DNA from: Nonomuraea rubra
GTDB taxonomy: Bacteria > Actinomycetota > Actinomycetes > Streptosporangiales > Streptosporangiaceae
Assembly: GCF_014207985.1 (NCBI RefSeq)
Contig: NZ_JACHMI010000001.1
Location: 6,555,001-6,619,000 of the forward strand
Reading direction: 5' to 3'
Length of the DNA stretch: 64,000 nt
Position numbers and translations under genes: made by a program. Positions 28,425-35,446 of this stretch are shown piece by piece. Within the stretch, counting starts at the first letter, position 1; the number at the start of each line of letters is the position of its first letter. Below the pieces are notes generated by a model. The model had not been told where the DNA came from. It made no database searches and was given only the letters and a program-made list of their open reading frames with translations.

Positions 28425-29627
28425 CTTAGGTTCAGAGAGTCAAGGCAACGCATTGGGCGGGGGTCTGGTAGCCGAGGCATTTGCGGGGGCGGTTGTTCAG
28501 CCGGGCGGCGATGGCGTCGAGGTCAGCTTGGCTGTATAGGCTCAGGTCGGTGCCTTTCGGTAGGTATTGCCGGATGAGTTTGTTGGTGTTCTCGTTGGTG
28601 CCTCGCTGCCATGGGCTGCGCGGTGCGGCGAAGAAAACGTCGATGCCGGTCGCTTCGGTGAGCAGCTGGTGGCCGGCGAGTTCCATGCCGCGGTCCCAGG
28701 TCAGAGTGCTGCGTAAGCGTGCATCCATCTGTGAGAACGCCTGCTGCAGGGCGGGGATGACGGTTGTGGTGTGACGGCTGGGTAGCGCGACCATGGTCAG
28801 GTAGCGGGACTTGCGGTCGACCAGCGTCGCGATCTGGCTGTTCTTGGCGCCGATGATGAGGTCGCCTTCGAGGTGGCCGAGCTCGGTTCGGGCGTTGGCG
28901 GCGTCAGGCCGTTCCTCGATCGGCCGTGCCCCGGTGATCTGAGAACGCCATTGGCCCTTGACCGTGTTCTTCTTGTTCTTGCGGATGGGACGGCGCGTGC
29001 GCAGCTTGGTGCACAGCTCACGCGGGATCAGCTTCCACCGGGTCGTGTAGATCGCACGGTAGATGCTTTCGTGGCTGATCCGCATGAGCGGGTTGCCGGC
29101 GTGCGTCAGCCGCAGATGGCCCACGATTTGCTCCGGCGACCACTCGTTGTCGAGGAGTTCGATCACCAGCCGGCGCAGCACCGAGTTGTTCTGCAGGGCG
29201 GACGGTTTTGGGCGGCGTGCCTGCTCTTGGGCGCGTTGCTCGGCGGCGAGCGCACGGTACTTCGCCCGGCCGCCGTTGCGGGCGACCTCCCGGCTCACCG
29301 TGGACGCCGAGCGGCCGATCGACACGGCGATCGACCGTAGTGAGGCTCCTGCCTCCAGGCCGCGGGAGATCGATTCCCGCTCCTCGGCGCTCAATCGGTC
29401 GGCCCGGCGTACCCGCGCGGCCGGCGCGATGCCGCCATGGTGCTTCAGCACCGTGAAAACCGACCCCGGAGGCTTGCCCAGCGCTCGGGAGATCACGCTG
29501 ATGGACTCACCGGCGCGCCACCGCCGCCACAAGTCCTCTTTCATCGCGTCTGACATTCCCGGCCGACCCATCCGAGCCACGATCCACCCATCCACTTGCA
29601 GTGTTGCGTTGATCGTTTGAATCTAAG
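28425..29627. mobile_element. IS30-family insertion sequence, copy A
   Basis: 1203 bp, ends CTTAGGTTCA (28425) and TGAATCTAAG (29627). Copy B at 31277-32479 has the same length and an identical predicted protein, in opposite orientation. Flanks: ...GCGTC on the left and TCGACC on the right. These do not belong together but pair correctly if the DNA between the copies is inverted, giving a 2-base TC duplication. Confidence 0.92.
28432..29595 (-). CDS. IS30-family transposase (copy A)
   Basis: 387 aa, full length. N-terminal helix-turn-helix regions (SISVISRALGKPPGSVFTVL, then a second one at LRSIAVSIGRSASTVSREVA). The DDE core carries GHLEGDLIIGAKNSQIATLV (first Asp), TLTWDRGMELAGH (second Asp) and SPWQRGTNENTNKLIRQYLP (catalytic Glu). 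Identical in protein sequence to copy B. It ends only 7 bases inside the element end, as usual for IS30. Confidence 0.95.
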   Translation of the reverse strand: MDGWIVARMGRPGMSDAMKEDLWRRWRAGESISVISRALGKPPGSVFTVLKHHGGIAPAARVRRADRLSAEERESISRGLEAGASLRSIAVSIGRSASTVSREVARNGGRAKYRALAAEQRAQEQARRPKPSALQNNSVLRRLVIELLDNEWSPEQIVGHLRLTHAGNPLMRISHESIYRAIYTTRWKLIPRELCTKLRTRRPIRKNKKNTVKGQWRSQITGARPIEERPDAANARTELGHLEGDLIIGAKNSQIATLVDRKSRYLTMVALPSRHTTTVIPALQQAFSQMDARLRSTLTWDRGMELAGHQLLTEATGIDVFFAAPRSPWQRGTNENTNKLIRQYLPKGTDLSLYSQADLDAIAARLNNRPRKCLGYQTPAQCVALTL

Positions 29628-31276: not shown

Positions 31277-32479
31277 CTTAGATTCAAACGATCAACGCAA
31301 CACTGCAAGTGGATGGGTGGATCGTGGCTCGGATGGGTCGGCCGGGAATGTCAGACGCGATGAAAGAGGACTTGTGGCGGCGGTGGCGCGCCGGTGAGTC
31401 CATCAGCGTGATCTCCCGAGCGCTGGGCAAGCCTCCGGGGTCGGTTTTCACGGTGCTGAAGCACCATGGCGGCATCGCGCCGGCCGCGCGGGTACGCCGG
31501 GCCGACCGATTGAGCGCCGAGGAGCGGGAATCGATCTCCCGCGGCCTGGAGGCAGGAGCCTCACTACGGTCGATCGCCGTGTCGATCGGCCGCTCGGCGT
31601 CCACGGTGAGCCGGGAGGTCGCCCGCAACGGCGGCCGGGCGAAGTACCGTGCGCTCGCCGCCGAGCAACGCGCCCAAGAGCAGGCACGCCGCCCAAAACC
31701 GTCCGCCCTGCAGAACAACTCGGTGCTGCGCCGGCTGGTGATCGAACTCCTCGACAACGAGTGGTCGCCGGAGCAAATCGTGGGCCATCTGCGGCTGACG
31801 CACGCCGGCAACCCGCTCATGCGGATCAGCCACGAAAGCATCTACCGTGCGATCTACACGACCCGGTGGAAGCTGATCCCGCGTGAGCTGTGCACCAAGC
31901 TGCGCACGCGCCGTCCCATCCGCAAGAACAAGAAGAACACGGTCAAGGGCCAATGGCGTTCTCAGATCACCGGGGCACGGCCGATCGAGGAACGGCCTGA
32001 CGCCGCCAACGCCCGAACCGAGCTCGGCCACCTCGAAGGCGACCTCATCATCGGCGCCAAGAACAGCCAGATCGCGACGCTGGTCGACCGCAAGTCCCGC
32101 TACCTGACCATGGTCGCGCTACCCAGCCGTCACACCACAACCGTCATCCCCGCCCTGCAGCAGGCGTTCTCACAGATGGATGCACGCTTACGCAGCACTC
32201 TGACCTGGGACCGCGGCATGGAACTCGCCGGCCACCAGCTGCTCACCGAAGCGACCGGCATCGACGTTTTCTTCGCCGCACCGCGCAGCCCATGGCAGCG
32301 AGGCACCAACGAGAACACCAACAAACTCATCCGGCAATACCTACCGAAAGGCACCGACCTGAGCCTATACAGCCAAGCTGACCTCGACGCCATCGCCGCC
32401 CGGCTGAACAACCGCCCCCGCAAATGCCTCGGCTACCAGACCCCCGCCCAATGCGTTGCCTTGACTCTCTGAACCTAAG
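31277..32479. mobile_element. IS30-family insertion sequence, copy B
   Basis: 1203 bp, ends CTTAGATTCA (31277) and TGAACCTAAG (32479), inverted relative to copy A. Flanks AAGCCGA and GACACC become a matching 2-base GA duplication only after the intervening segment is re-inverted. Confidence 0.92.
31309..32472 (+). CDS. IS30-family transposase (copy B)
   Basis: 387 aa, identical to the product of copy A with the same helix-turn-helix and DDE motifs. Intact. Two identical transposases here mean that short reads would not place the inverted segment by themselves. Confidence 0.95.
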   Translation: MDGWIVARMGRPGMSDAMKEDLWRRWRAGESISVISRALGKPPGSVFTVLKHHGGIAPAARVRRADRLSAEERESISRGLEAGASLRSIAVSIGRSASTVSREVARNGGRAKYRALAAEQRAQEQARRPKPSALQNNSVLRRLVIELLDNEWSPEQIVGHLRLTHAGNPLMRISHESIYRAIYTTRWKLIPRELCTKLRTRRPIRKNKKNTVKGQWRSQITGARPIEERPDAANARTELGHLEGDLIIGAKNSQIATLVDRKSRYLTMVALPSRHTTTVIPALQQAFSQMDARLRSTLTWDRGMELAGHQLLTEATGIDVFFAAPRSPWQRGTNENTNKLIRQYLPKGTDLSLYSQADLDAIAARLNNRPRKCLGYQTPAQCVALTL

Positions 32480-32602
32480 GACACCGGTTTCAAGAAACGG
32501 TTCGCCGAACACGCCGCCACTCTCGGAGTCAACGCCGAGGTTGTCCATCGCGACCCCGAAACCCGTGGCTTTCACGTCCTCAAGCGACGCTGGGTGATCG
32601 AG
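32480..32602 (+). pseudogene. IS5-family transposase, middle part
   Basis: 41 residues (DTGFKKRFAEHAATLGVNAE, then VHRDPETRGFHVLKRRWVIE), continuing exactly where the fragment at 29628 stops. Cut after VIE by the serine-recombinase element; the rest resumes at 35060 with ERTFAWL. Confidence 0.88.
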
Positions 32603-32623
32603 ACGTGTCAAGCACACTGCACT
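32600..32623. repeat. Left attachment junction (attL-like) of the serine-recombinase element
   Basis: IS5 sequence ends with GAG at 32600-32602. The element arm CAAGCACACTGCACT lies at 32609-32623 and is the exact inverse of the arm at 35038-35052. With a GA crossover the arms are both 22 bases from the centre. Confidence 0.75.
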
Positions 32624-34766
32624 CATGGATTCGGTTCGGCTGACGTGTTGTCGTCCTCGGTCCATAGGCGTCGGCTGTACCAGCCGGGCGGACGGGCTCG
32701 GCGCTCCCGTAGTTCAGCGAGTTCTCGCTGGTCAGCGTGGGCGATGAGCCGATGCGGCCAGCAGCTCTCCCGGCGCGCTGTGATCCAGCCCCGGTTGATC
32801 CAGGCGTAAAGGGTGGAGGTGGTCATCTGTAGCTCGGCAGCCAGATGCTTGAGCCACCGCTCATCCGGTCCGGGCTCCTCGCCGGCGGGAGCGGGGCGAT
32901 GACGATGGACACGGCCTGCCGGACAGCCGAGACGGCGCATGAGGTCGCGGACGGTGGTCGCGGTGATCCGATCGCCGCCCTTCGCCGGCCGATAACCCTC
33001 GGCTGCCAACCGGTCGGCGATCCCACTGGCGCCGATGCCCTGGGCCGCCAATTCACGGATCCGACCGATCATCGCAGGGTAGTAGGACAATTGGTCGAGC
33101 CGCTGCACCGGGCGAACAAGTTCACCGCAGGTGGTGGCACCTCCCGCCCAGACGATGCTCGCCTGCACGCGTTCGCTGGTCCCGGACACGGTGACGATGA
33201 CCTTGTCGACGATCGCGCGGACGATCTCCTTGCGATCGTTGATCGTCGTTGTCGGCGCGTGCCACAAGCCGGCGATATCGCCGGCCAGCGCAGTGATGGT
33301 GTGCCGCTCAGCCGCTGTGAGGGTGCGCGGGCTGGTGCGGGTGAAGCGGGCGTGTTCCTCGCGGAGTTTCTGCTGGTGAGCCAGGGCGCTCTCCCAGTCC
33401 TTCTCCAGTTGGCGGACCACCAGACGGTTTTCGGGTTCGGCCAGGTGGTAGCAGCGCCGTGCCCGGTCAGCTTCGTAGGCGGCTCGCTCCAGCCGCTGAG
33501 ACCACAACCGCTCCAGCTCGGCCCGTTCGGCCACCACCTGGTCCGCGGCCCGCAGCGAAACCTCCACGGCAGCGGGGGCGAGCGCGGCCAGTACCTGCCC
33601 TTCGACGAAGGCGTCCACGCAGGCCGCGTTCAGAAGCTGGCAATTGTGGGCTGCTCCGTAGTTGGTGGCCTCCCGGGAACACACGTACTCGGGTACGGCT
33701 CTGCTGCGCTGGGTGTGGTAGCGCACGATCACGCAAAAAATCAACCCAGCGGCCAGAGCGGGCCCGTTCCGCACCGAGCCCGTCGCGTCGGCGCGAGCCC
33801 GGTTGGCGGCGAGTTTCGCCTCGTTGGCCTCGAACTGGGTCACCGTGATGTAGGCAGGCAGCACGTCGGGGATCATCACCAGCCACTCGTCCCTGGCCTG
33901 GACGACCCTGCCCGTGCTGGGCCGGGCAGGGTCCTGGCGGCGCGGGTCGGCCCGGCGGCGACCGTAGGCATAGATCCCGGCATAAGCGGGATTGTGTAAC
34001 AGGGTCTGCAGGGTCATCCGGTTCGGCCTGCGCCACTCCAGCGTGCCCTTGTCCGGCCCCTCCCGCAACCGGATGCCCAGCTGGATGCCGTTCGCGACGA
34101 GATAGCGGAGCACCCCGTGCAGGGTGCCGATCCGCTCGAACTGCGCGAAGATCAGCCGGATGACGCTCTGAACCTGCTCGTCCGGGTCGAAGACCACCTC
34201 GCCCGAGGGGCGGCGGAGATAGCCGCTGGGCAGCGCGAAGGACAGCTCACCGCGGCGGGCCTTGTTGATCCGGCCGTTCCGCATCCGCTGTTTGATCAGA
34301 TGAAGTTCGGCCTCGCTGATGGTGCCCTTGAGCCCGAGCAGGAGCCGATCGTTGTAGTCGCCCGGGTCGTAGATGCCATCCAGATCCGCCAGCACCGCGC
34401 CCGACAGCGCACACAACTCGATCAGCTGGTACCAGTCCTTGCCCGAGCGAGCCAAGCGGGACATCTCGATGCCCAGCACCAGCCCGACATGGTCCAAGCC
34501 GATCTCGGTAACCAGTCGTTGAAACCCGTCCGCGCCGTTGCTGTGGTCGCCGACATCCCCAGGTCATCGTCGATGACCAGGACCCGGTCCGCCGTCCATC
34601 CCAACGCCACGGCTCGCTCCACCAGCGCGTACTGCAGCTGGGTCGACTCCTGGTGATGGACCACCTGCTGCTGCGTCGACTGCCGGACATACACCACCGC
34701 CAGACGCTGCAGATGACGATCACACACCTTGCCATGGGCCCTCTCCCAGGGCAGCACCGTGATCAC
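32623..34766 (-). pseudogene. Large serine recombinase with one frameshift
   Basis: About 714 codons from a GTG at 34766. The catalytic N-terminus has the Ser in VVYVRQSTQQQVVHH, then one base is lost near 34520 (GF.QRLVTEIGLDHVG). The remaining 624 codons are open: IEMSRLARSGKDW, LADLDGIYDP, ISEAELHLIKQRM, the recombinase domain (YAGIYAYGRRRADP), a degenerate zinc ribbon (YVCSREATNYG but no clean first CxxC), a coiled coil, and two C-terminal helix-turn-helix segments. The stop lies within the element's left arm. The GTG overlaps the partner gene's stop. If the frameshift is real, the element is locked in place. Confidence 0.85.
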
Positions 34767-34894
34767 CGTCGGCTCCGCTCACCCGCAGCCGTGGCCATCG
34801 CGCGCCCGGCCAGCCTCGTCAACTGCCGCACGACCAGCCGCCGGTTCGCCTCCGGCAAACTCGCCCACACCGGGGTGTTCAGCGTCGTCTGCAC
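34763..34894 (-). CDS. Small protein coupled to the serine recombinase
   Basis: 43 aa from a GTG at 34894 (start uncertain). Reads NTPVWASLPEANRRLVVRQL then TRLAGRAMA; the LPEANRRL pattern recurs in short proteins encoded just upstream of recombinases in actinomycete elements (recalled, not checked). Its TGA overlaps the recombinase GTG (GTGA), so translation is coupled. Candidates are a directionality or accessory factor. An alternative frame over the same bases is open from 35035 but shows no conserved look. Confidence 0.5.
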   Translation of the reverse strand: MQTTLNTPVWASLPEANRRLVVRQLTRLAGRAMATAAGERSRR

Positions 34895-35037
34895 CCTCGC
34901 CTGGGGCCGACATCGCGTTCCTCTCGCATGAGGACCCGTCCCTCTCCTGGACCCGAAGCCGCTCGGCCACCCTGACCAGCCGCCGCAGCCCCTCACGCCC
35001 GATTATCGGTCCCCGCCGACCCTCTTGACCATCCATA

Positions 35038-35062
35038 AGTGCAGTGTGCTTGGACGATGGAG
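35038..35062. repeat. Right attachment junction (attR-like) of the serine-recombinase element
   Basis: Arm AGTGCAGTGTGCTTG at 35038-35052, seven bases, then GAG at 35060-35062, where IS5 coding sequence resumes (GAG CGG ACA). Confidence 0.75.
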
Positions 35063-35446
35063 CGGACATTCGCCTGGCTGGTCCGCTACCGCCGACTGGT
35101 GCGCATCTACGAACGCAAGCCCGAACATCATGAAGCCATGATCTGGTGGGCCACCGTGCACCAGATGACCCGCCGCCTGACACGCGAACTGGCCGGCCAG
35201 CCATCCCCTGGCCGCTGGGGCAGCTCGCCACCTCTACCGATCTTGACCAGCTCCGACCGGCGCGGCAAGGTCCTGCAAGTCCTGGCCGCTCAGCCCTGGC
35301 ATGCCTGGAAAGGAAGCGAATTGGCCGCCATCCTCGGCATCGAGAACGTCAACAGCTTCCGCGTCCAGCTGTCCCAATGGTCTCACCAGGGTTACATCAA
35401 CAAGATCGGACCAGCCCTCTACGGGCCCATGCCTGCAAACACGTAA
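35060..35446 (+). pseudogene. IS5-family transposase C-terminus with an extra helix-turn-helix-like tail
   Basis: ERTFAWLVRYRRLVRIYERK and WWATVHQMTRRLTREL complete the IS5 transposase (the catalytic Glu lies in the first segment). The frame then continues for about 75 residues (RGKVLQVLAAQPWHAWKGSE, LAAILGIENVNSFRVQLSQW) that look like a small winged-helix DNA-binding unit not found in standard IS5 proteins. Stop at 35446. Separated from the rest of the gene by the serine-recombinase element and IS30. Confidence 0.8.

Follow-up and report, generated by a model that had tools for sequence, protein, structure and literature searches.

Inteins and homing introns are parasites that settle in the best-conserved codons of an enzyme gene, and they splice out, with the gene spared. 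A nitrogen-fixation gene is interrupted by XisF elements, which leave it by excision during development. The group II intron RmInt1 is described as having an abundant insertion sequence, ISRm2011-2, as its natural target (PMC8914252). The serine integrases include PhiC31 and Bxb1, and thousands have been predicted (Durrant et al., 2022; PMC10083194). Where that paper discusses targets, it lists magnesium chelatase/protease, prolyl isomerase and competence genes, and no transposases. Its quality step retained large serine recombinases (LSRs) of 400–650 aa, and 720-aa recombinases would therefore presumably drop out by length. No account of the targeting of transposase active sites was found in a search of an open-access library, subscription journals lying outside its scope.

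The element described here lies in a 64,000-nucleotide stretch of the Nonomuraea rubra genome (the window; contig NZ_JACHMI010000001.1, positions 6,555,001 to 6,619,000), and very probably belongs to a widespread family of ~2.5-kb elements that home into the active-site DNA of the enzymes of other mobile elements. Its limits and arms can be read from the DNA itself. The insert comprises 2,460 bases (32603..35062), with the recombinase on the minus strand and one GAG copy assigned to the flank; GAG stands at both edges in the window sequence (32600–32602 and 35060–35062). The upstream part of an IS5 transposase gene (32480..32602, plus strand, attL side) ends ...RRWVIE at GAG, and the downstream part (35060..35446, plus strand, attR side) begins E-RTFAWL. 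Removal of this insert had been predicted to restore the transposase in frame, and it does: the flanks without the insert read LKRRWVIERTFAWL, a single open frame of 173 aa that matches Pfam DDE_Tnp_1_2 (1e-8) and DDE_Tnp_1 (3e-5). The junction, RRWVI|ERTF, falls on the DDE glutamate codon; GAG at 32600..32602 (plus strand) is this catalytic codon, and its GA is the probable crossover dinucleotide.

The sequence CAAGCACACTGCACT is found at 32609–32623 and its exact inverse at 35038–35052, and the arms extend to 22 nt at 95% complementarity. One arm (32609..32630, plus strand) lies beside the recombinase stop codon and covers part of it, and the other (35031..35052, minus strand) lies at the upstream end of the element. 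Both 15-base arms are on the element side of the core, 7 bases from GA each, and the attP rebuilt from the element ends measures 15+7+GA+7+15 = 46 nt. The 46-nt attP of the original prediction, with arms symmetric about GA, was thus recovered in both arms and spacing. Nearby, two identical, inverted 387-aa IS30-type transposase ORFs (28432–29595, minus strand; 31309–32472, plus strand) flank IS5- and IS3-type ORFs, and the right copy ends beside the truncated start of the element-bearing IS5 gene. Elsewhere in the same genome, an orphan left end of the element family, without a recombinase, was read by eye at an IS5 Glu codon (L003, position 1563), and a decayed relative of the window's IS5 gene is uninterrupted across the insertion point (L002, about 1480–1560).

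The recombinase is encoded in two overlapping ORFs with a frameshift in the catalytic domain, and the window copy is therefore broken. The first part (34422..34766, minus strand) has a GTG start and the resolvase motif YVRQST ahead of the frameshift, while the second (32623..34497, minus strand) holds the remaining resolvase, the Recombinase domain and a C-terminal HTH-like stretch. The two pieces match PF00239 and PF07508, and the intact relatives P0003, L009 and L072 match PF00239, PF07508 and PF13408; judged by this domain order (Resolvase, Recombinase, zinc beta-ribbon), the protein is a large serine recombinase. DUF4368 was absent at a Pfam E<=0.1 in these three recombinases and at E<=1 in the window piece. 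The best NCBIfam match was the fdxN-element recombinase XisF, with 65.7 bits against a cut-off of 375, and no solved structure matched the recombinase.

Two small ORFs precede the recombinase gene. ORF2 (34763..34894, minus strand; 43 residues, VQTTLNTPVWASLPEANRR...) is kept in most relatives of the clade, and the overlap of its stop with the recombinase GTG (34766), noted in the original prediction, is seen in the sequence. ORF1 (MDGQEGRRGPIIGREGLRRLV...; 34779..35036, minus strand) is also small, has its ATG within the arm and overlaps ORF2 in a different frame, and its N-terminal part is conserved. In a cross-clade comparison, the z for ORF2 was at least 5 in 16 of 23 loci, with control frames of the same DNA also scoring in close relatives, and ORF2 failed in L062 and L072. 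Codon-position values were flat for ORF2 (0.247, 0.247, 0.265) and rose over the first 30 codons of ORF1 (0.154, 0.205, 0.252). Either ORF may encode an accessory or directionality factor. No phage or conjugation genes were found between the att sites; the 2.3–2.6 kb elements carry only the LSR and small ORFs.

A scan of genome contigs with the 624-aa recombinase piece as query yielded 23 loci. Nine distinct close relatives (L033–L041, with L008 repeating L041) have 78–83% protein identity to the window recombinase, the same kind of arms, the same arm-core spacing and the same insertion codon, a recurrence beyond chance; both arms are present in each, 2,318–2,478 bases arm to arm. The plasmid loci L065 and L066 bring the close relatives to eleven. 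Recombinase frames of 713–721 aa are uninterrupted in nine of the eleven (L033–L039, L065 and L066), and those of L040 and L041 are broken. A 707-aa protein of Streptomyces luteireticuli (P0005) is another intact relative. All 11 split IS5 transposases that diverge from one another, each at the same codon (RRWVV|ERTF or a variant of it). Although found by recombinase alone, 21 of the 23 loci interrupt a DDE transposase at its Glu codon, as read from one or both sides; the call for L042 was made by eye and is one base short at the junction, and L049 and L053 have no assigned target. Relatives with both ends stand alone at 2.3–2.6 kb and are not embedded in larger elements. The expectation that relatives would share the 15-base arms was borne out among close relatives, but distant ones have different inverted arms of their own. 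Similarly, uninterrupted IS5 relatives exist, as anticipated for empty sites, but the reconstructed sites differ in sequence, the codon being the same.

In total, 47 elements, the window's included, have their junction on a DDE glutamate codon, 27 read on both flanks and 20 on one. Of the 27 two-sided in-frame joins, 26 read E; L039, in which the left-side core is TG, reads Q with that core. The targets are IS5, IS4, IS701, IS630, IS1380 and other DDE transposases, and the hosts belong to the Actinomycetota, Cyanobacteriota and Alphaproteobacteria (among them Streptomyces, Planobispora, Streptacidiphilus, Leptolyngbya, Skermanella, Rhizobium and Rhodovastum). Further insertions in IS5 are L063, L069 and L083. 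Seven elements are in IS701 (L067, L045, L046, L059, L070, L062 and L097), six in IS4-like genes (L009, L011, L012, L068, L051 and L077) and seven in IS630 (L058, L014, L030, L025, L048, L064 and L071). L025, L014 and L030 are on repeat contigs of a single genome, and L025 may represent the opposite end of one of the other two. L057 is in IS1380, L010 is in an ISAs1-like gene, and L043 and L013 are in DDE genes of unsure family. The original prediction had a transposase gene, and not a core gene, as the target, which is correct as to the gene but understates the site, a catalytic-Glu codon common to unrelated DDE families. Relatives at about 47–61% identity have different arms and different targets at the same codon. 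L062 is inserted in the opposite orientation (GA, not TC, in the recombinase sense), and the Glu codon is still split. Some flanks are irregular: the right flank of L013 is another family recombinase gene, unlike the transposase on its left, and reflects either inter-element recombination or an assembly chimera; no transposase was found in the right flank of L059; the left flank of L010 was not found; and the flank of L077 gave no Pfam match.

Inverted-repeat searching alone missed the ends in most 50–60% relatives, which needed a symmetric search about a dinucleotide and direct reading of the flanks. In a blind search of 39 loci for equidistant arms about any shared dinucleotide, with flanking genes ignored, a TC core (GA on the other strand) was returned in 24, with sizes of 2,334 to 2,582 bases. 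The other 15 gave another dinucleotide; they include truncated recombinases and contig ends, and also L011, L045 and L062, whose ends were placed by hand. Scores were tied or close in several further loci. When attP and attB of 23 elements were compared, agreement over the 14 nt before GA was 0.497, against a mean of 0.313 and a maximum of 0.388 in 2,000 shuffles. At the TGG in positions −9 to −7 relative to GA, identity was 0.91, 0.91 and 0.83; at the T in position −2 it was 0.74. Beyond GA the agreement in the same 23 elements was 0.311, not above the shuffled maximum of 0.345. One attP half thus appears to copy the target's TGG...AT.GA stretch, which codes for W-x-I-E; close relatives make up roughly half of these 23, and the likeness is therefore a description more than a test.

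Reading from GA always yields D or E, and the letter alone is therefore not independent evidence; it is the open frame, the motifs and the Pfam matches that point to the Glu codon. Pfam was run on 10 of the 27 joins, and all 10 match DDE families in the joined frame; nine matches span the junction, and L058 does likewise. For IS630, IS1380 and IS701 we take the junction residue to be the catalytic Glu from known motifs, together with Pfam on the joins. L038 splits its target transposase at residue E209, which is invariant in 21 aligned sequences (the L038 join and 20 uninterrupted transposases at 70–79% identity). D94 and D168 are likewise invariant and, assigned by motif, are probably the other two residues of the triad. 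Among the best 120 of 1,874 uninterrupted IS5-type relatives, the closest intact one (P0122) is 79% identical across the whole L038 join, and empty sites are therefore common. An exact Y-2-R-3-E-6-K is present in the IS4-type transposases entered by L009, L011 and L068, and the glutamate of this motif is that of the DDE triad (PMC2266710). No Tn5-like match for the IS4-type join was found among solved structures.

A tree of 68 recombinases was built by a quick method with SH-aLRT support only (L040, L041, L048 and L078 were dropped for stops). Target labels change 27 times on it, against a shuffled mean of 47.7, and as low a number occurred in 0 of 200 shuffles, near copies helping the clustering; within these sequences, target family follows the recombinase tree. 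A 39-row clade (SH-aLRT 100) contains 35 Glu-codon rows, one row in IS66 TnpB (L076) and three without an assigned target (L056, L049 and L075). L076, from Azospirillum, is an exception to the DDE-Glu rule, with its right end in TnpB at KILVWDGSGL (Pfam 3.6e-21). In all, 13 of the 68 rows have no target assignment.

Relatives at 33–40% identity differ in upstream context; their flanks are other mobile-element genes, and they are treated as sister clades. One such clade (SH-aLRT 100) consists of six elements on rhizobial plasmids, all in IS21 istB at VFG|D-xx-MTxALLDRL and in both orientations (L072, L079, L081, L073 and L074 two-sided, L082 one-sided). In L072 the GA is within the Asp codon, and the gene matches Pfam IstB. 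Further rows are close to the third acidic residue in transposases of the rve type (L086 and L088 in IstA, L089 in an IS481-like gene, L017 and L111 in IS3), and of the four on which Pfam rve was run only L111 scored above the curated cut-off. By their right flanks, seven rows are at conserved motifs in group II intron reverse transcriptases, in both orientations (L022, L027, L021, L029, L032, L093 and L105), with RVT_1 matched in both that were tested (L022 and L032). The right flank of L091 is a tyrosine recombinase gene with a weak Pfam match, entered directly after GHSDISTTTIY, near the catalytic tyrosine. It is somewhat more likely than not that a whole superclade of LSRs consists of hyperparasites of mobile elements, each lineage homing into the DNA of a catalytic or near-catalytic acidic residue of another mobile element's enzyme by means of an attP modelled on the coding sequence that it enters (the DDE glutamate, the Asp of IstB VFGDxxMTxALLDRL, or a motif near the first catalytic Asp of the group II intron reverse transcriptase).

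Each member of the family carries a single large serine recombinase (about 720 aa if unbroken) and, besides it, one or two very small ORFs. By analogy with established serine integrases, the two ends of the element would join as attP, presumably in a circular intermediate, and the stretch around the Glu codon would serve as attB. Strand exchange at GA, the first two bases of the Glu codon, would leave a split, inactive transposase. Conservation covers the Glu codon together with the codons next to it, and insertion sequences occur in many copies that the host can spare; such sites would therefore be plentiful and harmless to the host, which may be the evolutionary reason for the choice. Lineages would change IS family while the codon stays the same.

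Relatives are numerous and patchily distributed. At least 7,922 passed 1e-30 among the best 7,999 candidates of a protein search, and 151 of 72,556 plasmid records had matches at E<=1e-60, distant ones included. A search of 50,697 phage records gave no match at E<=1e-40, and viral contigs gave no confirmed match. Counting the window's own genome, matches occurred in 17 of 297 sampled genomes of the family (E<=1e-60) and 8 of 394 of the class (E<=1e-100); with the L009 recombinase as query (E<=1e-100), they occurred in 10 of 396 genomes of the phylum and 18 of 345 of the order.

The original prediction was right in describing a stripped-down integrating element that has a large serine recombinase, an attP with the geometry seen in serine integrases and a target within an IS5 gene. 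On that view it would be an ordinary serine-recombinase integrative element whose single attB fell in IS5 by chance, with no catalytic-codon rule. The attP geometry and LSR domains agree with this, as does the window's own 80% clade, all 10 tree rows of which are in IS5. However, relatives at 49–61% identity use the same codon with other arms and in other IS families, L062 even in the opposite orientation, and this multi-family pattern already makes the explanation quite unlikely. The recombinases could instead be passengers or domesticated genes of insertion sequences that travel with them, and in nearly all cases with an assigned target the elements are indeed inside IS genes. Yet near-identical elements occur in divergent IS copies, closely related recombinases occur in different IS families, and there are many transposases of this kind that carry no insertion. 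One genome carries identical recombinase frames at two different IS630 sites (L014 and L030), which refutes common descent with the insertion sequence for that pair unless both IS copies were converted, and the passenger explanation as a whole is highly improbable.

The transposase is interrupted at its catalytic codon in every case, as would also be expected if the elements were kept by their hosts as anti-transposon devices that silence insertion sequences, and not as selfish parasites. However, no linked cargo or host gene was found, presence is patchy (the 8 of 394 class genomes, for example) and many copies are broken, and the same facts are explained by selfish use of a conserved, multicopy site; a host-serving role is therefore considered unlikely. 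Homing of a selfish family into active-site codons is the preferred explanation. If true, it would reveal a DNA recombinase lineage specialized on the active-site codons of transposons, a hyperparasite that finds safe, abundant and conserved sites. The family may act as a natural brake on insertion sequences, and may supply integrases for sites that recur many times per genome. It would also offer dozens of naturally occurring attP/attB pairs of common ancestry that differ in specificity at a fixed codon, and with these the way in which serine integrases change specificity becomes directly testable.

Several known systems share features with this family. XisF is likewise a large serine recombinase that interrupts a gene, but the window recombinase scores far under its cut-off. 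Inteins and homing introns leave their genes intact, whereas here the transposase is left split. Serine integrases share the Resolvase, Recombinase and zinc-ribbon domains, attP arms symmetric about a dinucleotide and an attB split by the insert; unlike their elements, those of the present family measure 2.3–2.6 kb, lack phage and ICE genes and target the catalytic codon of many transposase families. The LSRs of the TndX/TnpX type also serve as transposases of small mobile elements, but members of that clade are reported to be multi-targeting, to have relaxed specificity and to contain DUF4368 (PMC10083194), whereas the present family is codon-exact and DUF4368 was not found in the three recombinases scanned. 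RmInt1 is a precedent in spirit, its natural home also being an abundant insertion sequence (PMC8914252). However, RmInt1 retrohomes into one IS by means of a ribozyme and reverse transcriptase, while the family described here would use a DNA recombinase to enter many IS families at one catalytic codon.
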